Assembly: GCA_020849725.1 (NCBI GenBank)
Contig: JADLAZ010000039.1
Coordinates: 1 to 20,802 of the forward strand
DNA: 20,802 bases
Reading direction: 5' to 3'
From: Chloroflexota bacterium
GTDB taxonomy: Bacteria; Chloroflexota; Chloroflexia; Thermomicrobiales; JADLAZ01
In this document: piece after piece, positions 2,801-11,367 of the stretch
Numbering within the stretch: the stretch's first letter is position 1
How the letters are laid out: the number at the start of each line of letters is the position of its first letter
The notes under the pieces: generated by a model
What the model saw: the letters and a program-made list of their open reading frames with translations, nothing else
Database searches by the model: none
Told to the model about the DNA's origin: nothing
Program-made: the position numbers and the translations under genes

Positions 2801-4132
2801 ATGGCGAAACCGGTCGTGATGCCCCGCCTGGGATGGACGATGGAGGAGGGCAGCATCGTCGACTGGCTCAAGCGCGACGGCGACACCGTCACTGCTGGCG
2901 AGCCACTCTTCACGATCGAGAGCGATAAGGCGGTCAACGAGTGCGAGGCGCTCGACAGCGGCGTGCTGGTCATTCCGCCCGACTCGCCCGCATCCGGCGT
3001 CAAGGTGCCCATCGGTGCGGTGTTGGCGTACCTGGTCGCGCCGGGCGAAAGCCGCGCGTCCCTGGCCAGCGTCGACACGCCGGTGGCCGGCAAGGCGACG
3101 AGCGAACTCATGACGGCCGCGCCACTGGCCGTCGGCACTGGCGCGGCCACAGCGGTCACGACGCCAACGATTAGCCCGCGCGCCCGGCGCGTGGCTGGGG
3201 AGCTTGGCGTCGACTGGACGGGCCTGCGCGGCAGCGGCCGCACCGGCCGCATCGTCGAGCGCGACGTGCGCGCAGCTGCTGAGCGCATTCCGATTGAGGC
3301 CGCGCGACCGGCGCGGCTCACGCCGCTGGCGCGGCGCGCGGCCGTCGATGCCGGGCTGGACGCGGCCGCGCTGGCGACCGGCGCCGCCGGCAGCCGAGTT
3401 ACCCGCGCCGATGTCGATCAGGCGGCGCGGCCGACCGGGGCGATGACTCCGTTCGCCGGTGTGCGCCGCCTGACCGCCGCACATCTGACCGACAGCGCGC
3501 GCACCGTGGCAGCCGTCACGCTGACGACCGAGGCCGACGCCACCCGGCTGGTGGCGCTGCAGCGTGAGGCAGCCGAGCCAGCGGTCGCCGGCCCGGCGCC
3601 GCCGACGATCACGGCGCTGTTCGCCCGGCTGACAGCGCTGGCGCTGACGGCGCACCCGGCGCTCAACGCCTCACTCGACGGCGACGCGATCGTTCAACAT
3701 CCGACCGTCCATCTCGGGCTGGCGGTCGACACCGAGCGCGGCCTGCTGGTGCCGGTCGTGCGCGACGCCGACCGCAAGAGCGCCGGTCAGATCGCCGCTG
3801 ACGCCGCTCGGCTGGTGACCGCCGCCCGCGCCGGCAGTATCGGACCGGACGACCTGACCGGCGGCACGTTCACGATCACGAACCTGGGTATGTACGACAT
3901 CGATGCCTTCACGCCGATCATCAACCTGCCGGAGTGCGCTATTCTCGGCATCGGGCGCATCCTCGCCCGCCCGGTCGTCGTCGACGAGGCCAGCGAGGCC
4001 GTCGCCGTGCGGCGCATGGTCACCCTCAGTCTCACCTTCGATCACCGGCTGGTCGACGGCGCGCCGGCCGCCCGCTTCCTGCAGCACCTCAAGCGCCTGA
4101 TCGAGCAGCCGCTGCTCTGGCTTCTCACGTAG
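2801..4132 (+). CDS. Dihydrolipoamide acyltransferase (E2) of a 2-oxoacid dehydrogenase complex
   Basis: 443 residues. Residues 1-80 form a lipoyl domain with the attachment lysine K43 in the ESDKA motif. A peripheral-subunit-binding domain covers 124-160 (ISPRARRVAGELGVD...RTGRIVERDV). A second segment, 173-210 (LTPLARRAAVDAGLD...SRVTRADVDQAA), has the same pattern, so two binding domains seem to be present in tandem. The catalytic acyltransferase domain runs from about 215 to 443 with the H415-x-x-x-D419-G420 active-site motif (DHRLVDG). AAGGAG at 2789-2794 sits 6 nt before the ATG. An ATG at 2796 is out of frame. The enzyme moves the acyl group from E1-bound thiamine through lipoyl-lysine to CoA in the cytoplasm. 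E1 genes follow directly; no E3 is in the window. Pyruvate, acetoin, branched-chain or another ketoacid specificity is undetermined. Confidence 0.95.
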   Translation: MAKPVVMPRLGWTMEEGSIVDWLKRDGDTVTAGEPLFTIESDKAVNECEALDSGVLVIPPDSPASGVKVPIGAVLAYLVAPGESRASLASVDTPVAGKATSELMTAAPLAVGTGAATAVTTPTISPRARRVAGELGVDWTGLRGSGRTGRIVERDVRAAAERIPIEAARPARLTPLARRAAVDAGLDAAALATGAAGSRVTRADVDQAARPTGAMTPFAGVRRLTAAHLTDSARTVAAVTLTTEADATRLVALQREAAEPAVAGPAPPTITALFARLTALALTAHPALNASLDGDAIVQHPTVHLGLAVDTERGLLVPVVRDADRKSAGQIAADAARLVTAARAGSIGPDDLTGGTFTITNLGMYDIDAFTPIINLPECAILGIGRILARPVVVDEASEAVAVRRMVTLSLTFDHRLVDGAPAARFLQHLKRLIEQPLLWLLT

Positions 4133-4182
4133 TAGGCGAAGTACTCCGCGTACTGGCTCTACGCGTCAGCAAAGGATGGCTC

Positions 4183-5193
4183 ATGACTGTCAACGCTGCG
4201 TCTACTGACCTCCTTGGCCTCGACCGCGAGCGGCTGCTCCGGCTCTACCGGCAGATGCTGGAGATCCGGCGCACCGAGGAGGCGCTCGCCCGCGCCTACC
4301 TGAGCGGCCTGATCCACGGCGCGTGCCACACCTATGTCGGCGAGGAGGCGATCGCCACCGGCGTCTGTGCCCACCTGCGGCCGGAGGACGCCGTCGCCAG
4401 CACGCACCGCGGCCACGGCCACGCGCTGGCCAAGGGCGTCTCGCCGCGGGCCGTGGCGGCCGAGCTGTTCGGGCGCGAAACCGGCTGCTCGCGCGGACGC
4501 GGCGGCAGCATGCACCTGTTCGCGCCTGAGGTCGGCCTGCTTGGCACCAGCGGCATCGTCGGCCCATCGATCGGGCTGGCCACCGGCGCTGGCTATGCCT
4601 TCAAGCTGCGCGGCACGGACAACATCGGCGTTGGCTTTTTCGGCGACGGCGCGTCGAACAACGGCGCCTTTCATGAAGGGCTGGGCATGGCCGCCGTCTG
4701 GAAACTGCCGGTCCTGTACGTGTGCGAGAACAACCAGTTCGCGACCGAAGTGCCCTTCGCCGCCGTCGCCGCCAAGGTCGACATCGCGGCGCGCGGCGCG
4801 GCACTCGGCGTCAGCAGCGTCACGCTCGATGGCAACGACGTGATGGCGATCTACGAGGCGGCCGGTGCGGCCGTCCAGCGTGCCCGCGCCGGCGATGGGC
4901 CGAGCCTGCTCGTCTGCACGACGTATCGGACGCGGCCGCACTCCGAAGGCATGCGCGATACCGGCTACCGGACGCAGGCGGATATCGACGCCTGGAAGGC
5001 GCGCGACCCGATCGTGCTGTTCCGGCGGCGGCTGCTGGCCGCTGGCCTGGCGACCGACGCGGAGTTCGACCAGATCGAGGCGGAGACGCGGGCGCTGGCC
5101 GAGGACGCGATCGAGTTCGCGACGGCCAGTCCCTGGCCCGATCCGGCCACCGCCACCGATCACGTTTTCGCCGGCCAGCACGCGCCGGCCTGA
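4183..5193 (+). CDS. 2-oxoacid dehydrogenase E1 component, alpha subunit
   Basis: 336 residues. The start at 4183 is chosen over an upstream in-frame extension into the E2 gene because AAAGGA (4171-4176) precedes it and the protein then begins at the family-typical helix LLRLYRQMLEIRR. The thiamine-diphosphate motif runs from GDG (154-156) through 26 residues to NN (183-184). The RGRGGSMHLF segment (105-113, H111) and the loop YRTRPHSEGM match acetoin/pyruvate-type E1-alpha. It pairs with the beta subunit 37 nt downstream to make the alpha2beta2 decarboxylase that transfers the acyl group to the E2 lipoyl arm. Length and motifs are normal. The substrate is undetermined; acetoin-dehydrogenase-like (AcoA) and pyruvate-dehydrogenase-like (PdhA) proteins share these features. 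Confidence 0.95.
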   Translation: MTVNAASTDLLGLDRERLLRLYRQMLEIRRTEEALARAYLSGLIHGACHTYVGEEAIATGVCAHLRPEDAVASTHRGHGHALAKGVSPRAVAAELFGRETGCSRGRGGSMHLFAPEVGLLGTSGIVGPSIGLATGAGYAFKLRGTDNIGVGFFGDGASNNGAFHEGLGMAAVWKLPVLYVCENNQFATEVPFAAVAAKVDIAARGAALGVSSVTLDGNDVMAIYEAAGAAVQRARAGDGPSLLVCTTYRTRPHSEGMRDTGYRTQADIDAWKARDPIVLFRRRLLAAGLATDAEFDQIEAETRALAEDAIEFATASPWPDPATATDHVFAGQHAPA

Positions 5194-5230
5194 GCCGCGT
5201 CTCGGACAGGCGTCCGCGAGGGAGAGCACG

Positions 5231-6214
5231 ATGCGCGAAATGACCTTCACCGCCGCCGCCCGCGAGGGCCTGACCGAGGAGATGGCGCGCGATGCGTCGA
5301 TCTTCGTCGTCGGACAGGGCATCGGCGTCCGCGGCGGCAATTTCAACACGACCGTCGGCCTGTTCGAACTCTACGGCCCGGAGCGCCTGCGCGATGTCGG
5401 CATCGTCGAGCGCGGCTTCACCGGGCTATGCACCGGCGCGGCCATGGCCGGCGCGCGTCCGGTTGTCGACTACATGTTCTTCGACTTCGCGCTCGACGCG
5501 CTGGGCGAGCTGATCAACCAGACCGCGAAGATCCAGTACATGAGCAGCGGCCGGCTGACGATGCCGATCGTCCTGCGCGGCTGCATTGGCGCTGGCGGCG
5601 CGTCGGCGACGCATCACTCCGGCAGCTACTACAACATCTTTTGCAACATGGCCGGCTTCCGCGTCGTCGTGCCGACGACGCCGCGCGATGCCAAAGGGCT
5701 GCTCAAGACCGCCATCCGCAGCGACGACCCGGTGATCTTCATGGAGCACAAGTCGCTGCTGAACACCAAAGGGCTGGTGCCGGACCCCGAGGCCGACGAG
5801 TGCATCCCCTTCGGCCAGGCGCGCGTGGCGCGCGCCGGCAGTGCCGCCACCGTCGTCGGCATCGCCGCGATGGTGCCGAAGGCGCTGGAGGCAGCCGAGA
5901 CGCTGGCCCGCGAGGGCATCGCGATCGAGGTCATCGACCCGCGCACGCTGGCGCCGCTCGATATCGACACGATCCTGGCCAGCATCCACAAGACTGGCCG
6001 GTTGCTGATCGCCGATGAGACCTACGGGCCGTGCGGCATCGGCGGCGAGATCGCGGCGCAGGTGGCGGCGCGCGGCTTTGACGACCTGGATGCGCCGATC
6101 ATGCGTCTCAACGGGCCACAGACGCCGATCCCCTACAGTCCGCCGCTCGAGGCCGCCGTCCTGCCCTCGGCCGCTCAGGTTGAGGCAGCCATCCGCGATC
6201 TGCTGGCCGAGTAG
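5231..6214 (+). CDS. 2-oxoacid dehydrogenase E1 component, beta subunit
   Basis: 327 residues from the ATG at 5231, preceded by GAGGGAGAG at about 5218-5226; the frame is open farther left but that part lies inside the alpha-subunit gene. The N-terminal pyrimidine-binding domain has the conserved Glu in GIVERGFTGL and the segment GAAMAGARPVVDYMFFDFAL. ELINQTAKIQYMSSG and THHSGSYY follow, then the transketolase C-domain with VIDPRTLAPLDIDTI and LLIADETYG. The usual GEDVG near residue 28 is replaced by GQGIG, and RGGNFNTT replaces the commoner GGAFKVT. These mark a sub-clade distinct from textbook PdhB/AcoB. It forms the E1 heterotetramer with the preceding gene. Confidence 0.95.
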   Translation: MREMTFTAAAREGLTEEMARDASIFVVGQGIGVRGGNFNTTVGLFELYGPERLRDVGIVERGFTGLCTGAAMAGARPVVDYMFFDFALDALGELINQTAKIQYMSSGRLTMPIVLRGCIGAGGASATHHSGSYYNIFCNMAGFRVVVPTTPRDAKGLLKTAIRSDDPVIFMEHKSLLNTKGLVPDPEADECIPFGQARVARAGSAATVVGIAAMVPKALEAAETLAREGIAIEVIDPRTLAPLDIDTILASIHKTGRLLIADETYGPCGIGGEIAAQVAARGFDDLDAPIMRLNGPQTPIPYSPPLEAAVLPSAAQVEAAIRDLLAE

Positions 6215-6242
6215 GGCCGGCATCGCGATCGGAGGAGTGGGC

Positions 6243-7277
6243 ATGACCGACCACGGACCTGGCCTGGCCTTTATCGGCGCTGGCACGCTCGGGCAGATCT
6301 TCAGCGCGTCACTGGCGATGGCCGGCCCGCCGGTGACGCTGCTGGCAACACCGGGCACGGCCGCGCGGCTGCTGGCCGCCGGCCAGGTGCGCCTGCGCGG
6401 CCTGGTCGACCTGGCCGTGCCGGTCGCGCCCGCGCCCGCACCGCCCGGCGTCGTCGGCGTGACCGCCGACCCGCGCGACCTGCCAGCCAACACTGGCGTG
6501 CTGTTCACGACCAAGGGCCACCAGTTGCCAACCGCGATCGCGACCGTGCGTGCCGCCTGGCCGGCTGCCGGCGACCGCGCGGCCTGGGTCGGCGGTGTGC
6601 AGAACGGGATGCAAAAGGACACACTGCTGATCGAGGCGTTCGGCCCGGAGCGCGTCGTCGGCGCGGTGACGATCACCGCCGGACAGCGCGACCCGGACGG
6701 CACGGTCGTGCTGACCAGCCGCGGTGCCAGTTACCTGGGCGAGTTCCCACGGGGTCGATCGGAGCGCGCCATCACCGCTGCTGCCGCCATCGCCGCCACC
6801 GAATTGCCGGCCGAGGCGGTTGAGGACATCCGCAGCGTGCTCTGGTCCAAAGAAGCCAATGCCGTCGGCGTCTTCGGCGTGTCCGTCCTCTCGCGCTTGC
6901 CTGCCCCACTCATGATGCGCCGGCCCGACCTGGCCCGCGCCTACCTGGCGCTCATCCGCGAGGTCGACACGGTCGCCCGCGCCGATGGCGTCACCATGGG
7001 CGACTACGCCGGCTTCCCCATCAAGACCTACCTGGGCCGCACCGACGAGGAGAATATCGCATTTTTCAGCAGCCAGCCGTTCATTCCCAACGCCGACCCC
7101 AGCCGTCTCCCGCTGCCATCAATGACCCAGGACCTGCTGGCCGGCCGCGCGCTAGAAGTCGACGCCGTCTTCAGCGACTGCCTTGAGCGCGCCGCTCGCC
7201 TCGGTGTGACCGTACCCCGTATCGCGCTCGTCCGCGACCTGATCCGCGGCCTCGATCCCGGCCACTACGCCGAGTAG
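6243..7277 (+). CDS. Ketopantoate reductase (ApbA/PanE) family oxidoreductase
   Basis: 344 residues, a little longer than E. coli PanE (about 300). The start at 6243 follows GGAGGAG (6231-6237), 28 nt after the E1-beta stop; the longer open frame overlaps E1-beta and is not used. The N-terminal NADP-binding motif is IGAGTLG (11-17). K91 and QNG (120-122) lie in the cofactor/substrate cleft. K203 in WSKEANAVG corresponds to the catalytic lysine, and SMTQDLLAGRALEVD (293-307) holds the conserved Ser and Glu. As the last gene of the dehydrogenase cluster it more likely reduces or oxidises a 2-keto/2-hydroxy acid of that pathway than makes pantoate; this is inference. A true panE cannot be excluded. 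Confidence 0.88.
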   Translation: MTDHGPGLAFIGAGTLGQIFSASLAMAGPPVTLLATPGTAARLLAAGQVRLRGLVDLAVPVAPAPAPPGVVGVTADPRDLPANTGVLFTTKGHQLPTAIATVRAAWPAAGDRAAWVGGVQNGMQKDTLLIEAFGPERVVGAVTITAGQRDPDGTVVLTSRGASYLGEFPRGRSERAITAAAAIAATELPAEAVEDIRSVLWSKEANAVGVFGVSVLSRLPAPLMMRRPDLARAYLALIREVDTVARADGVTMGDYAGFPIKTYLGRTDEENIAFFSSQPFIPNADPSRLPLPSMTQDLLAGRALEVDAVFSDCLERAARLGVTVPRIALVRDLIRGLDPGHYAE

Positions 7278-7378
7278 CGATTACCTCACCGGGTCGATAG
7301 TGTGGCGCTCGCCCCCGTAGCCCCCCGTATCAGGCTAAGCACACGAACAGAAGCAGGGCGCGCTTTCGTCTGGCACAG

Positions 7379-7398
7379 TTCCCGTCGACGGACGGGAA
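7379..7398. terminator. Perfect 8-bp hairpin, possible terminator or operator
   Basis: TTCCCGTC (7379-7386), loop GACG, GACGGGAA (7391-7398): a perfect 8-bp stem with a 4-nt loop. It lies 102 nt after the dehydrogenase cluster and has no U-run, so intrinsic termination is only a possibility. It could equally be a dyad for a regulator. Confidence 0.4.
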
Positions 7399-7537
7399 GA
7401 TGGCACGGATGGTCAGGGGTGGGCCGCTGATGGCTGAGCCGCCACGGGCGCTGGTCGTCATCCAGCGGCAGGCGGTCGGTCGCGTGGCGATCTCGGCGCA
7501 TTCCAGAGCCGCTCACAGCCGCGCTTGCACTTGCCCC

Positions 7538-7566
7538 TTGCCGCCAGCCGCGTCGGTAGCTACCAT
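7538..7566 (+). promoter_or_regulatory. Weak sigma70-like promoter candidate for the sensor-regulator gene
   Basis: TTGCCG (7538-7543), 17-nt spacer, TACCAT (7561-7566), ending 32 nt before the GTG start. Only partial matches to TTGACA and TATAAT, so this is tentative. Confidence 0.25.
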
Positions 7567-7598
7567 GCGACTCTACCGGAATCGTGGAGGTCGTCCGC

Positions 7599-8894
7599 GT
7601 GCCGGGTCGCCTGGTGGTCGCATTTGGCGTGCTGTCGCTGGTCGCAGTCATCGCGTCGGCGCTGGTGACGCTGTACCTCGATAGCCGCCGCGCCGAGGTC
7701 GAGGCGCAGCGCCGTCTGATGACGGCCGCCAACTTCATGACCACGCTGCTCATGTCCGACCGCGACCGGATCCGCGTCGACGCGCAGGAGATCGCCTCGC
7801 GGCTGATGGTGCAGCAACTCCTGGTGGCGCACGATGGACCCGGCCTCACCCGCCTGCTGCCGGGCCTGCGCCAGACCGTGCGCGACGACGTCATTGCCAT
7901 CTATGCCGCCGATGGCACGTTGATCGCCAGCGACTCCGCAATTGTCGAGGCGCGGATCGACGCGCCGCCCGGCCTGGTTCGGGGTGCGCTGGCAAGCACG
8001 GCCGGTGCGGAGACCATCAACCATGCCGGGCATCTTATGGTCGCGGCGGCCGCTCCGGTCACGGTCAATAGCGAGATCATCGGCGCGGTACTCATTGGAG
8101 AGTTGCTCGATGAGCGGTTCGCTCGGCGCGTCAGCAACGCGGCCGAGATGACGGTGGTTTTGGCGCAGGAGAACGGCCCAACGATCGGCACCGAGCCGCT
8201 CAGCGGCCCGCTGCTGACGGCTGACCAGTGGGCGGCGCTGCGCGGGCGGGGCGACCTCTGGTTACACAGCACCGCCGCCACGCCACGACCGCTGCGCGCC
8301 ATCGCGCGGCCGCTGCTCGGCGGCGATGGGCGGCCGGTGGCCGCCGTCGTGCTGGGGCTGCCGGAGGCCACCGTCGTGCCGATCGAGGCCGCCGATCTGC
8401 CGCTGTATCTCGGCGCGAATGCGGTGCTGCTGCTCGGCCTGTGGGCCGTCGGCGCGCTCACCGCCATCGGCTTCAGCCGCCGCGCAGTGGCCGAGCCGGC
8501 GCCGAGCCGGTCGCTCCGTGCCCTCGTTGGCGGGGCTAGTCTGGCGGTGAACGATCAGGCGACCGTGCCGCTGGCGGAGACGCGCCACCTGGCTGACCTG
8601 ACGATCGACCGCGCCCGGCGGCGCGTGCAGGTCGGTGACCGCGAGGCGGCGCTGACACCGACGGAGTTCAACCTGCTGTGGGTGTTGGCCGCCGAGCCGG
8701 GCCGGGTCATGACGCGCGAGGAGTTGCTGGCTGAGCTGCGCGGTGTCGACTGGCAGGTCGAGCCGGGCCTACTCGATACGCATGTCAGCAACTTGCGCCG
8801 GAAGGTCGAGCCGGATCCTGCCCGCCCACGCTACGTGCTGACCGTGCGCGGCGTCGGTTTCAAGCTCGCCGACGACGTGGCATCGTCGGCCTGA
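7599..8894 (+). CDS. Membrane-anchored one-component regulator: TM, Cache-like sensor, TM, OmpR-type winged helix
   Basis: 431 residues from the GTG at 7599. This start is preferred over the GTG at 7584 because GGAGG (7586-7590) sits 8 nt before it and the protein then begins directly at the first membrane helix. TM1 covers about 5-27 (LVVAFGVLSLVAVIASALV). An extracytoplasmic region of about 240 residues (28-267) contains PAS/Cache-like strands (VIAIYAADGTLIASDS; APVTVNSEIIGAVLIGELL). TM2 is about 268-293, followed by a linker. A PhoB/OmpR-type winged helix occupies about 331-425 (LTPTEFNLLWVLA, recognition helix LLDTHVSNLRRKVE, wing YVLTVRGVGFKL). No receiver, HAMP or kinase domain is visible. 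ToxR/CadC proteins have the reverse order, with the DNA-binding domain N-terminal. It probably senses an extracellular small molecule and regulates DNA directly from the membrane. The next intergenic region contains matching direct repeats. Confidence 0.85.
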   Translation: MPGRLVVAFGVLSLVAVIASALVTLYLDSRRAEVEAQRRLMTAANFMTTLLMSDRDRIRVDAQEIASRLMVQQLLVAHDGPGLTRLLPGLRQTVRDDVIAIYAADGTLIASDSAIVEARIDAPPGLVRGALASTAGAETINHAGHLMVAAAAPVTVNSEIIGAVLIGELLDERFARRVSNAAEMTVVLAQENGPTIGTEPLSGPLLTADQWAALRGRGDLWLHSTAATPRPLRAIARPLLGGDGRPVAAVVLGLPEATVVPIEAADLPLYLGANAVLLLGLWAVGALTAIGFSRRAVAEPAPSRSLRALVGGASLAVNDQATVPLAETRHLADLTIDRARRRVQVGDREAALTPTEFNLLWVLAAEPGRVMTREELLAELRGVDWQVEPGLLDTHVSNLRRKVEPDPARPRYVLTVRGVGFKLADDVASSA

Positions 8895-9123
8895 GCGGGC
8901 TTTCAACCGCCCGTCACCCTTAAGGAAGGCTTAAGAACGCCTTCAGGGACGGTGCAGCGCGGTCAGGATCGCCCCTGCCAGCCGCTGATTTCGTCTGCCG
9001 CCGATCCTGCCGTGAAACGCAGGCACTCTTCAGGACTGCCGCGCCTGGTGGCCGGTACGCTGGAGGTGAGCGGAGCCACCGGACCAGGCCGGCTGACCCT
9101 GTTCGATGCCGAAGGATGAAGCC
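8895..9123 (+). other. Regulator-to-acyltransferase intergenic region
   Basis: 229 nt without a gene. A 5-bp stem (CGGGC 8896-8900 / GCCCG 8909-8913) just after the regulator stop is too weak to call a terminator. It is followed by the three 11-bp-phased repeats listed separately. A weak -10-like CAGGAT lies at 8964-8969, 16 nt after the last repeat. The rest shows nothing recognisable. Confidence 0.55.
8919..8951 (+). promoter_or_regulatory. Three direct repeats at 11-bp spacing, OmpR/PhoB-type operator
   Basis: CTTAAGG at 8919, CTTAAGA at 8930 and CTTCAGG at 8941 start exactly 11 bp apart. Direct repeats phased at about 11 bp are the known binding geometry of OmpR/PhoB-family winged-helix domains, for example the PhoB box. 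CTTAAG is rare in this GC-rich sequence, and I see no other copy in the window. The site lies 25 nt after the gene for such a domain and about 170 nt before the acyltransferase-esterase gene, so control by the neighbouring regulator is the simplest reading. Confidence 0.65.
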
Positions 9124-11367
9124 GTGGCGACGCGGGCGCGATGGACGCGACCAGGCCTACCAGCCCTGCCCGCGTGGGCCAGGGTCACCTGGCGCTACCA
9201 GGGGGCCAGTGGCCGGGACGCGCGGCTGGACCTGCTGCGCGGCTGCCTGATCGTCGCCATGCTGGTCGATCACCTCGGTGGCTCCTCCTGGTGGTATGCC
9301 GTGACCGGCGGCAACGCCTTCTATGTGTCGGCAGCCGAGGGCTTCGTCTTTCTGTCGGGGTTGGTGATGAGCCTGGTCTATGCCCGCGTCATCTCCCGCG
9401 ATGGACTGTGCGCGGCGACCAAGCGAGCGCTCCGCCGCGCCGGCACTCTGTATCTCATGGCCATCGGCCTGAGTGCTGCCTTCTATGGCGCCTCCAGTTT
9501 GGCCGGCGCGAGCTGGGCCGAACCGCTGGTGGACCTGCCGGCAGCCATTCTCCATTCCGCAACACTGCGTCGCAGCGATTATCTGGCTGACGTGTTGATG
9601 CTGTACGCGCTGCTCGTACTGGTCGCGCCGCTGGCGCTGGCGCTGCTGGCGCGTGGGCGTGCCGTGCCGTTGCTGCTCGGCTCGGCGGCGATCTGGGGGG
9701 GACATCAGGTCGGCTGGACTGCGCCGATCGATGCGCTGCTGGGCGGTCCCGAGACCTTTCGACCGCTGGCCTGGCAGGTCATCTTTGTCGCCGGATTGGT
9801 GCTTGGCTGGCACTGGCGCCGCCTCGAGCCACGGGTCGCGACCCGTGGTTGGACCCTGGCGACGCTCGCGCTGGGCACGGTCGCGGCCACGCTGATCGCA
9901 CTGGCTGTCATCGCGCCGCACACGCCGCTTGCGGAGCCGGTGGCCGCGATCTTCGCCAAGGATGGCCTGCGCGGTGGCCGGCTGCTGGCGGCGGCCATCT
10001 TCTTCCCGGTGCTGTTCGCCATCGCCACGCACCTGTGGCAGCCGCTGCGCGCCGGCCTGGGCTGGCTGCTGCTGCCGCTCGGGCAGCGTGCGCTACCGGC
10101 CTATGCGCTGCACCTGTTCGTCATCCTCGGCGCTCATGTCTGGTGGCCGCGCCTCCCCGGCTACAGCCTCGACGACGCAGCCGGCAATAGCATGCTGCAG
10201 GCATTGGCAGTCCTGCTGCTGTGGGCGCTGGTACGCCTGCCGGACGCGGCGCGGTCGCTCGCGCCGGCGCTGGTGGCCGGGGCGGTGCGACCGGCGGCCG
10301 GTCGGCCCATCGCCGCCGCCGGCGCCCTCGTCGGTGTTCTGCTGGCGGGCGGCGGACTGGCGGTGCTGCCCGTGGCCGCGCCCAGCCTGGTTCCCAGCCG
10401 GGCGGTGTCACCAGCGCTACCGGTCGCCCCGGCCCAGCACGCCCCGGCCGTCCCGACGTACATCGCTCAACGCATCGAGCGCACGGCCACGGCCACCAGT
10501 GCCAGTCTCACCAATGAACGCCCAGTCGCCGGCAGCGCCGTGGCTCGCCCTGACACCACGCCGTCCAGCCCACTCGCGGGCGCCGGCGCCGCCAGCGTCG
10601 AGTCACATGCCTTCTACAGCGTGGCCCTCGGGCGCACCATGGCCTACTGGATCTACCTGCCGCCGGGGTATCGCCAGACGTCGGCGCGATACCCGGTGCT
10701 CTACCTGCTGCACGGCATCGGCGGCGACCGTGGCGAATGGATCGAGTACGGCGCCGTCAATGCTGCCCAGCGCCGTCACGACGCCGGCCAGGCCGCGCCG
10801 ATGCTGATCGTGCTGCCGGAGGGCGAGCAGTCGTACTGGGTCAATCACGTCGAGGGGCCGCGCTGGGGCGACTACGTGGCCGACGATCTGGTCGCCCACA
10901 TCGACGCGACCTACCGGACGCAGCCGGTGGCGGCGGCGCGCGCCATCGGCGGCTTGTCGATGGGGGCCACGGCTGCGCTGACGCTGGCGCTGACCTACCC
11001 GGACCGCTTCGGCACGGTAGGGCTGCACAGCCCATCGGTACGGGCCGCCGATCAGGCACTCCCGTTCCTGGGCGTCGACGACGAGTTTGCCCGCCGCGAT
11101 CTGCTGACCATCCTACAGACGACCGATGCCCCGTTCCCCCGCCACGTGTGGATCGATGTCGGCGCTGACGACGGGTGGGCCGGCACAGCGCAGGCGCTGC
11201 ACGAGGCGCTCCTTGCGCGCGGGGTTGCCCACACCTGGCAGCTCAACACCGGCGCCCACGATGGTAACTACTGGTCGGCGCACGTCACCGACTACCTGCG
11301 CTACTACGATGAGGCTGTCGCCCAGACCACCATCATGGCGTCACCCCCTGGGGGGCAGTCGCCATGA
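9124..11367 (+). CDS. OpgC-like membrane acyltransferase fused to an esterase domain
   Basis: 747 residues from the GTG at 9124, chosen because AAGGA (9112-9116) lies 7 nt upstream; the ATG at 9106 is in frame but has no ribosome binding site. Residues ~30-380 form a multi-spanning OpgC-type domain (RLDLLRGCLIVAMLVDHL; SAAEGFVFLSGLVMSLVY; the RALPAYALHLFVILGAH helix). A last helix at about 398-418 leads to a Pro/Ala/Thr-rich linker (about 420-490). The C-terminal ~250 residues are an alpha/beta-hydrolase of the esterase-D/antigen-85 type: YPVLYLLHGIGGDRGEW, nucleophile S612 in GLSMG, acid in DVGADDGW (D682/D683) and H712 in GAHDG. OpgC adds succinyl groups to periplasmic glucans in proteobacteria. 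Here an acyltransferase and an esterase on one chain suggest acyl transfer to, and removal from, an envelope glycan or lipid. The substrate is unknown. Confidence 0.85.
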   Translation: MATRARWTRPGLPALPAWARVTWRYQGASGRDARLDLLRGCLIVAMLVDHLGGSSWWYAVTGGNAFYVSAAEGFVFLSGLVMSLVYARVISRDGLCAATKRALRRAGTLYLMAIGLSAAFYGASSLAGASWAEPLVDLPAAILHSATLRRSDYLADVLMLYALLVLVAPLALALLARGRAVPLLLGSAAIWGGHQVGWTAPIDALLGGPETFRPLAWQVIFVAGLVLGWHWRRLEPRVATRGWTLATLALGTVAATLIALAVIAPHTPLAEPVAAIFAKDGLRGGRLLAAAIFFPVLFAIATHLWQPLRAGLGWLLLPLGQRALPAYALHLFVILGAHVWWPRLPGYSLDDAAGNSMLQALAVLLLWALVRLPDAARSLAPALVAGAVRPAAGRPIAAAGALVGVLLAGGGLAVLPVAAPSLVPSRAVSPALPVAPAQHAPAVPTYIAQRIERTATATSASLTNERPVAGSAVARPDTTPSSPLAGAGAASVESHAFYSVALGRTMAYWIYLPPGYRQTSARYPVLYLLHGIGGDRGEWIEYGAVNAAQRRHDAGQAAPMLIVLPEGEQSYWVNHVEGPRWGDYVADDLVAHIDATYRTQPVAAARAIGGLSMGATAALTLALTYPDRFGTVGLHSPSVRAADQALPFLGVDDEFARRDLLTILQTTDAPFPRHVWIDVGADDGWAGTAQALHEALLARGVAHTWQLNTGAHDGNYWSAHVTDYLRYYDEAVAQTTIMASPPGGQSP

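Follow-up and report, generated by a model that had tools for sequence, protein, structure and literature searches.

A predicted membrane-anchored one-component regulator that joins a dCache_3 sensor to an OmpR-type winged helix

Results

Domain architecture of the regulator

The window analysed here is a stretch of 20,802 nucleotides from a Chloroflexota bacterium (contig JADLAZ010000039.1 of assembly GCA_020849725.1, positions 1 to 20,802), in which the gene at 7599–8894 encodes, judging from its sequence, a membrane-anchored one-component regulator predicted to bind DNA from the membrane. The parts of the protein are listed in Table 1, together with a candidate operator and a candidate target gene. 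The open reading frame as listed begins at an alternative GTG (7584) and is five codons longer, giving a 436-residue version; we favour the GTG at 7599 because the GGAGG motif lies at the appropriate position, 8 bases before it.

In Pfam, searched with the 436-residue version, dCache_3 scored 42.5 bits against a gathering cut-off of 25.7 and the C-terminal Trans_reg_C domain 81.2 bits against 26.2 (E 6e-23). Receiver (Response_reg), HAMP and kinase (HisKA, HATPase_c) domains were all absent from the families listed for the protein at E≤1. An AlphaFold2 model built from 17 sequences (mean predicted local distance difference test score, pLDDT, 80.9; predicted template modelling score, pTM, 0.54) begins with a helix at residues 2–66 that includes the first transmembrane segment (TM1). 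There follow two PAS-like halves, with strands at 98–169 and 185–255, in a dCache fold that matches CitA, LuxQ and DctB, then the TM2 helix (264–297), a stretch of pLDDT below 50 (298–324) and a winged helix (328–423), which both exceeds the Trans_reg_C cut-off and has the fold of OmpR-family effector domains. The initial annotation had proposed, from the letters, two helices flanking a Cache/PAS-like region of about 240 residues, with an OmpR/PhoB winged helix at the C terminus and no receiver, HAMP or kinase; each of these claims held up, and structure prediction returned the Cache fold that it had expected. The protein combines a predicted DNA-binding domain with at least one transmembrane segment in one chain, as transmembrane transcription regulators (TTRs) do, and with neither receiver nor kinase domain listed at E≤1 it is not a hybrid TTR.

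Table 1. Features of the regulator gene and its surroundings in the window
Feature	Position	Strand	Evidence
Membrane one-component regulator (predicted), 431 residues	7599..8894	+	Open reading frame call, Pfam, homologues, AlphaFold model
GGAGG ribosome-binding site, 8 bases 5' of the GTG start at 7599	7586..7590	+	Sequence
TM1, about residues 5–27	7611..7679	+	Hydropathy peak at 5–23 = 2.78; model helix 2–66
Predicted extracytoplasmic dCache_3 sensor, residues 28–263	7680..8387	+	Pfam PF14827, E 7.3e-11; fold matches
TM2 helix, residues 264–297	8388..8489	+	Hydropathy peak at 275–293 = 2.02; model helix 264–297
Linker, residues 298–327, probably disordered	8490..8579	+	pLDDT below 50 at 298–324; 22% mean pairwise identity
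OmpR/PhoB winged helix, residues 328–424 of 431	8580..8870	+	Trans_reg_C match, model
Three half-sites CTTAAG/CTTAAG/CTTCAG at 11-bp spacing, candidate operator	8918..8946	+	Shuffle test, pattern counts
OpgC-type acyltransferase fused to esterase, candidate target gene	9106..11367	+	Pfam OpgC_C E 1.1e-46, Esterase E 2.9e-28

A family of full-length relatives

A BLASTP-type protein search returned 80 matches, comprising 16 full-length relatives (P0001–P0013, P0016–P0018), 2 fragments (P0014, P0015) and 62 matches that cover 16–30% of the query and are mostly receiver plus winged-helix proteins. Two profile searches added P0081 and then P0084 and P0085, bringing the family to 20 distinct full-length members with the same layout, the window protein included, at 29–95% identity to it. 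This number of distinct members demonstrates that the fusion is not a chance event. In 19 of the 20 the sensor lies between two hydropathy peaks above 1.6, and weaker peaks (1.6–2.0) also occur within the sensor in several members, among them the window protein. Pfam results for six other members place dCache_3 above its cut-off in P0013, P0018, P0081 and P0085 and below it in the member at locus L117 (21.8 bits), with no listing for P0016. The family has so far been seen only in metagenomes and in one Chloroflexota metagenome-assembled genome (MAG), that of G177, whose protein is P0084 ('winged helix-turn-helix domain-containing protein [Chloroflexi bacterium]').

Conservation is uneven along the chain. 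Pairs of family members are on average 62% identical over the winged helix and 45% over the sensor, against 22% over the linker, and the 37 invariant residues are distributed over both halves of the protein. The stretch aligned to residues 293–330 varies from 17 to 86 residues among the 20 members, which favours an arrangement of the dimer, rather than a rigid helix, as the carrier of the signal.

Origin of the sensor and of the winged helix

In a tree of the sensor (47 rows, taken from the matches at E≤1e-6, among which the L124 sensor does not appear, and leaving aside most duplicate loci and any match of fewer than 180 positions) the 20 members form one branch with support 86/86, present in 85% of bootstrap trees, and this branch joins the kinases L121, L122 and L123 at 94/84. 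The winged helices likewise form one branch (81/75) amid response regulators in a tree of 80 rows and 96 columns that included the 55 best-scoring other regulators and 5 neighbours of kinases.

The sensors nearest to the family, by the sensor tree and Pfam, are those of histidine kinases. HisKA and HATPase are present in all of the kinases L120–L125; Pfam also lists PAS and no HAMP in L121–L124, while HAMP is found in L120 and L125, so this sensor lineage may long have been without HAMP. dCache_3 exceeds its cut-off in L121 alone among L121–L124, with none listed in L122 and L123, and L124 has a weak sCache_3_3 match. An OmpR-type regulator lies downstream on the same strand at five of the six kinase loci (three of these regulators were checked in Pfam), L122 being the locus where none was found downstream.

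We considered the regulators adjoining the nearest kinases as the source of the winged helix and found no support for this: their winged helices fall outside the family branch and rank 127, 131, 132, 169 and 185 of 188, in a comparison with regulators preselected for similarity, which lowers these ranks, and with a profile built from the family itself. Since the winged helices of the kinase neighbours are not the closest to the family, a simple collapse of a gene pair is disfavoured. The proposal in the initial annotation that a two-component system had collapsed into one protein stands in part. It is a fair description of the protein, given the kinase-like input, the nearest other sensors being those of histidine kinases and the OmpR-type regulators at the kinase loci, but descent of the winged helix from those neighbours is not supported. 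On these sequence comparisons, the origin that fits best is a single coupling event in which the winged helix was taken from another regulator, a sensor-kinase input having probably been joined once only to an OmpR-type output.

Distribution in genomes

Among 400 sampled genomes from the phylum of G001, the sensor half matched 56 genomes at E≤0.001, in 68 places. One of these places is a family member (G177, E 7.7e-87); the next best match has E 3.4e-25. A comparison by glucose-6-phosphate isomerase gave matches at E≤1e-30 in 72 of 400 genomes, drawn from at least two classes and reaching 78% identity at best; together with the name of P0084 it points to the Chloroflexota without singling out a class. 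Thirty of the 68 places were sampled and 26 classed by eye, as 20 histidine kinases, 2 STAS-like proteins and 1 each of GGDEF protein, EAL protein, adenylate cyclase and winged-helix fusion; Pfam confirmed five of the kinases and the further kinase L125. The four left unclassed include L088, whose match ends at a contig end, L091, L103 and L107.

Within the class of G177 (29 genomes, E≤1e-12) none of the five other matches was recognised as a second member, these being the kinases L083–L086 and the truncated match L088. In the larger genome samples 6–15 first-look candidates were scored per genome and absences are therefore weak. A class of 158 genomes gave no match at 1e-15, a class of 41 genomes no new member, only the already known kinase of G237, and the phylum of G005 (246 genomes) no match at 1e-12. 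A contig scan with the full alignment is uninformative on sensors; both of its patterns lie within the winged helix, the 80 loci retained from its 276 relatives match within residues 300–431 only, and the G177 member is not among its listed loci. None of the ten odd-length winged-helix matches that were read has the layout of sensor, transmembrane helix and winged helix, the one hydrophobic stretch among them lying in an extension of the open frame. Four of the ten (L129:750–2126, L130:579–1727, L131:387–2000 and L133:252–1349) appear by eye to be AAA-type ATPases with a C-terminal winged helix.

A candidate operator and the neighbouring genes

OmpR/PhoB half-sites are usually spaced about 11 bp apart. 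The initial annotation had pointed to repeats at 8919–8951, and these are real: CTTAAG is present in the window at two positions only, 8919 and 8930, and CTTCAG comes next at 8941. Among nine region-by-period tests, the score of this 11-bp triple repeat was matched by none of 500 shuffles, as against 33 and 367 of 500 when the period was set to 10 and 12 in that region. The pattern CTTNAG-N5-CTTNAG with at most one mismatch occurs five times in the window, four of them at the repeat, against 0.22 expected. The repeat ends 160 bases before the start of the next gene, in which an OpgC-type membrane acyltransferase and an esterase domain form a single chain of 753 residues. No such repeat was found upstream of the regulator gene, and there is therefore no hint of autoregulation. 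Scanning the whole window against Rfam and for tRNA genes gave no matches.

The operator comparison across members covered the window and L117, and the intergenic region beside the L117 member has no 11-bp triple repeat, its 11-bp score falling below the shuffle mean. The L117 member, 36% identical to the window protein, lies within L117:588–4442 and is transcribed away from a tricarboxylate transporter operon that encodes TctA (E 3.3e-117) and TctB (E 1.1e-12). From this setting and the CitA-like fold, a carboxylate may reasonably be guessed as the ligand of the dCache domain, though as no more than a starting point.

A gene run at 2801–7277, directly upstream of the regulator, encodes a ketopantoate-reductase-like protein together with components of a 2-oxoacid-type dehydrogenase, namely E1 alpha, E1 beta and a lipoyl acyltransferase (E2).

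Discussion

The layout of the protein and its conservation suggest how it may work. The dCache domain would bind a small molecule outside the membrane, perhaps a carboxylate-type metabolite, and binding would rearrange the pairing of two copies through the Cache domains and transmembrane helices. The flexible linkers would then let two cytoplasmic winged helices reach the spacing of tandem 11-bp half-sites, the likeliest site being 8918–8946, and so alter transcription of the OpgC-esterase gene, the signal passing without any phosphorylation. Of this, the analysis establishes the domains and their order, a family that conserves them, and the repeat, whereas the ligand, the target, binding to DNA and the switch in the dimer are inferred. 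Taken as a whole, a membrane one-component regulator with a dCache dimer switch that controls the gene at 9106 from this candidate operator is the reading that we hold, on balance, to be the probable one. We are more tentative, with confidence a little short of even, about the broader proposition that a family of single origin condenses a two-component system into one chain. In it a kinase-type dCache input, with its transmembrane pair, would act straight on a response-regulator winged helix by way of linkers whose length varies freely; neither phosphorylation nor HAMP nor a phase-locked coiled coil would take part, and the tethered winged helices would meet at tandem sites of 11-bp spacing beside the gene.

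Several observations weigh against this account. The pTM of the model leaves the relative placement of its domains uncertain, TM2 of P0081 has a weak hydropathy peak (1.40), tree supports are moderate, with 96 columns and an unsettled bootstrap for the winged helix, and the ligand guess draws on the fold and a single 36%-identical relative. With no 11-bp triple repeat at L117, the operator rests on one locus. Moreover, a period of 12 beside the L117 relative scored at a level reached by 3 of 500 shuffles, so high repeat scores do occur elsewhere, and a possible RNA hairpin within 8895–8975 overlaps the repeat (z −2.29; 4 of 200 shuffles fold equally well). The hairpin and the missing L117 repeat also speak for an alternative in which the protein is a genuine membrane DNA-binding protein with targets elsewhere, the repeat serving another OmpR-type regulator or a hairpin in the regulator's transcript. 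A further point in its favour is that the family profile gave 7–28 matches in each of eight genomes, and that almost every match listed fell on the winged helix. The exact 11-bp spacing, which shuffled sequence did not reproduce, and the position of the repeat between regulator and next gene are less easily explained in this way, and a search of 7200–9300 for terminator-like sites followed by a T run found none; we regard this alternative as less likely than the main reading.

A different output, regulated proteolysis, would have the sensor control cleavage near TM2, within the linker, so that the active form is the freed winged helix. The low complexity, variable length and low model confidence of the linker would suit such a role, but the shortest linkers have 17 residues, and CadC is reported to need no cleavage although its disordered linker has about 50 residues (PMC5936718). 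We consider this quite improbable. That the fusion might be an assembly error, a frameshift relic or a decaying kinase comes to mind because no listed member bears the name of an isolate, the sole organism name belonging to a MAG (P0084). This idea is refuted by the homologues, 20 distinct open proteins of full length whose invariant residues span both halves and which form one branch in both trees, and we give it almost no credence.

Kinases and these regulators share their type of input, and the family is for this reason a natural experiment on what a Cache/transmembrane input transmits. If that input acts through an unstructured linker of 17–86 residues, proximity within the dimer would alone suffice as output. 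One membrane protein may replace a two-protein signalling pair. If true, this would supply extracellular biosensors with a design that is both compact and modular, and the passage from two-component to one-component signalling with a step that can be traced. A close comparison is with the kinases L121, L123 and L124, whose sensors match the family profile, whose neighbouring regulators have the same class of winged helix and for which no HAMP is listed either. These kinases differ in retaining PAS, HisKA and HATPase, with the receiver placed in a regulator protein of its own.

Proteins of this general kind are already known, and the novelty claimed in the initial annotation is correspondingly less well supported. 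Demey et al. (2023, PMC10269533) counted 50,302 membrane regulators, about 56% of them single-pass and 17% with two transmembrane segments, and describe Rsp of Neisseria gonorrhoeae, a PilS-PilR chimera that represses pilA. Like the window protein, Rsp couples an N-terminal sensor-kinase membrane receptor to a C-terminal response-regulator DNA-binding domain, but its sensor is the membrane part of PilS rather than dCache_3, and its output is the DNA-binding domain of PilR rather than one of OmpR type. The PilR domain is of NtrC type. Proteins in which one chain carries both a DNA-binding output and a Cache domain outside the cytoplasm, as here, are also on record: Table 1 of a 2016 survey (PMC4822843, UniProt 2012_06) gives 300 transcription factors among 15,569 dCache_1 proteins and no transcription-factor entry among 883 for dCache_3, though its outputs are tabulated as HTH clan or LytTR with no finer breakdown. 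Members of the ToxR family have an N-terminal cytoplasmic DNA-binding domain, one transmembrane segment and a C-terminal periplasmic sensor (2018, PMC5936718), which bears out the claim that the domain order here is the opposite of that in ToxR/CadC. The window protein is, like them, one-component and membrane-anchored with a winged-helix output and an extracytoplasmic sensor, and CadC too has a disordered linker; with its order reversed and two transmembrane segments flanking a Cache sensor, it falls outside the ToxR/CadC definition. We found no recognised description of dCache_3 joined to Trans_reg_C in the open-access literature, and this pairing, found in a family that probably arose once, looks to be a new combination. 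A protein of 408 residues among the BLASTP matches (P0073) also has a membrane sensor followed by a C-terminal OmpR-type Trans_reg_C domain; its sensor is the unrelated PF13796 and its match covers 24% of the window protein, so that it is a separate, unrelated example of the same general arrangement.
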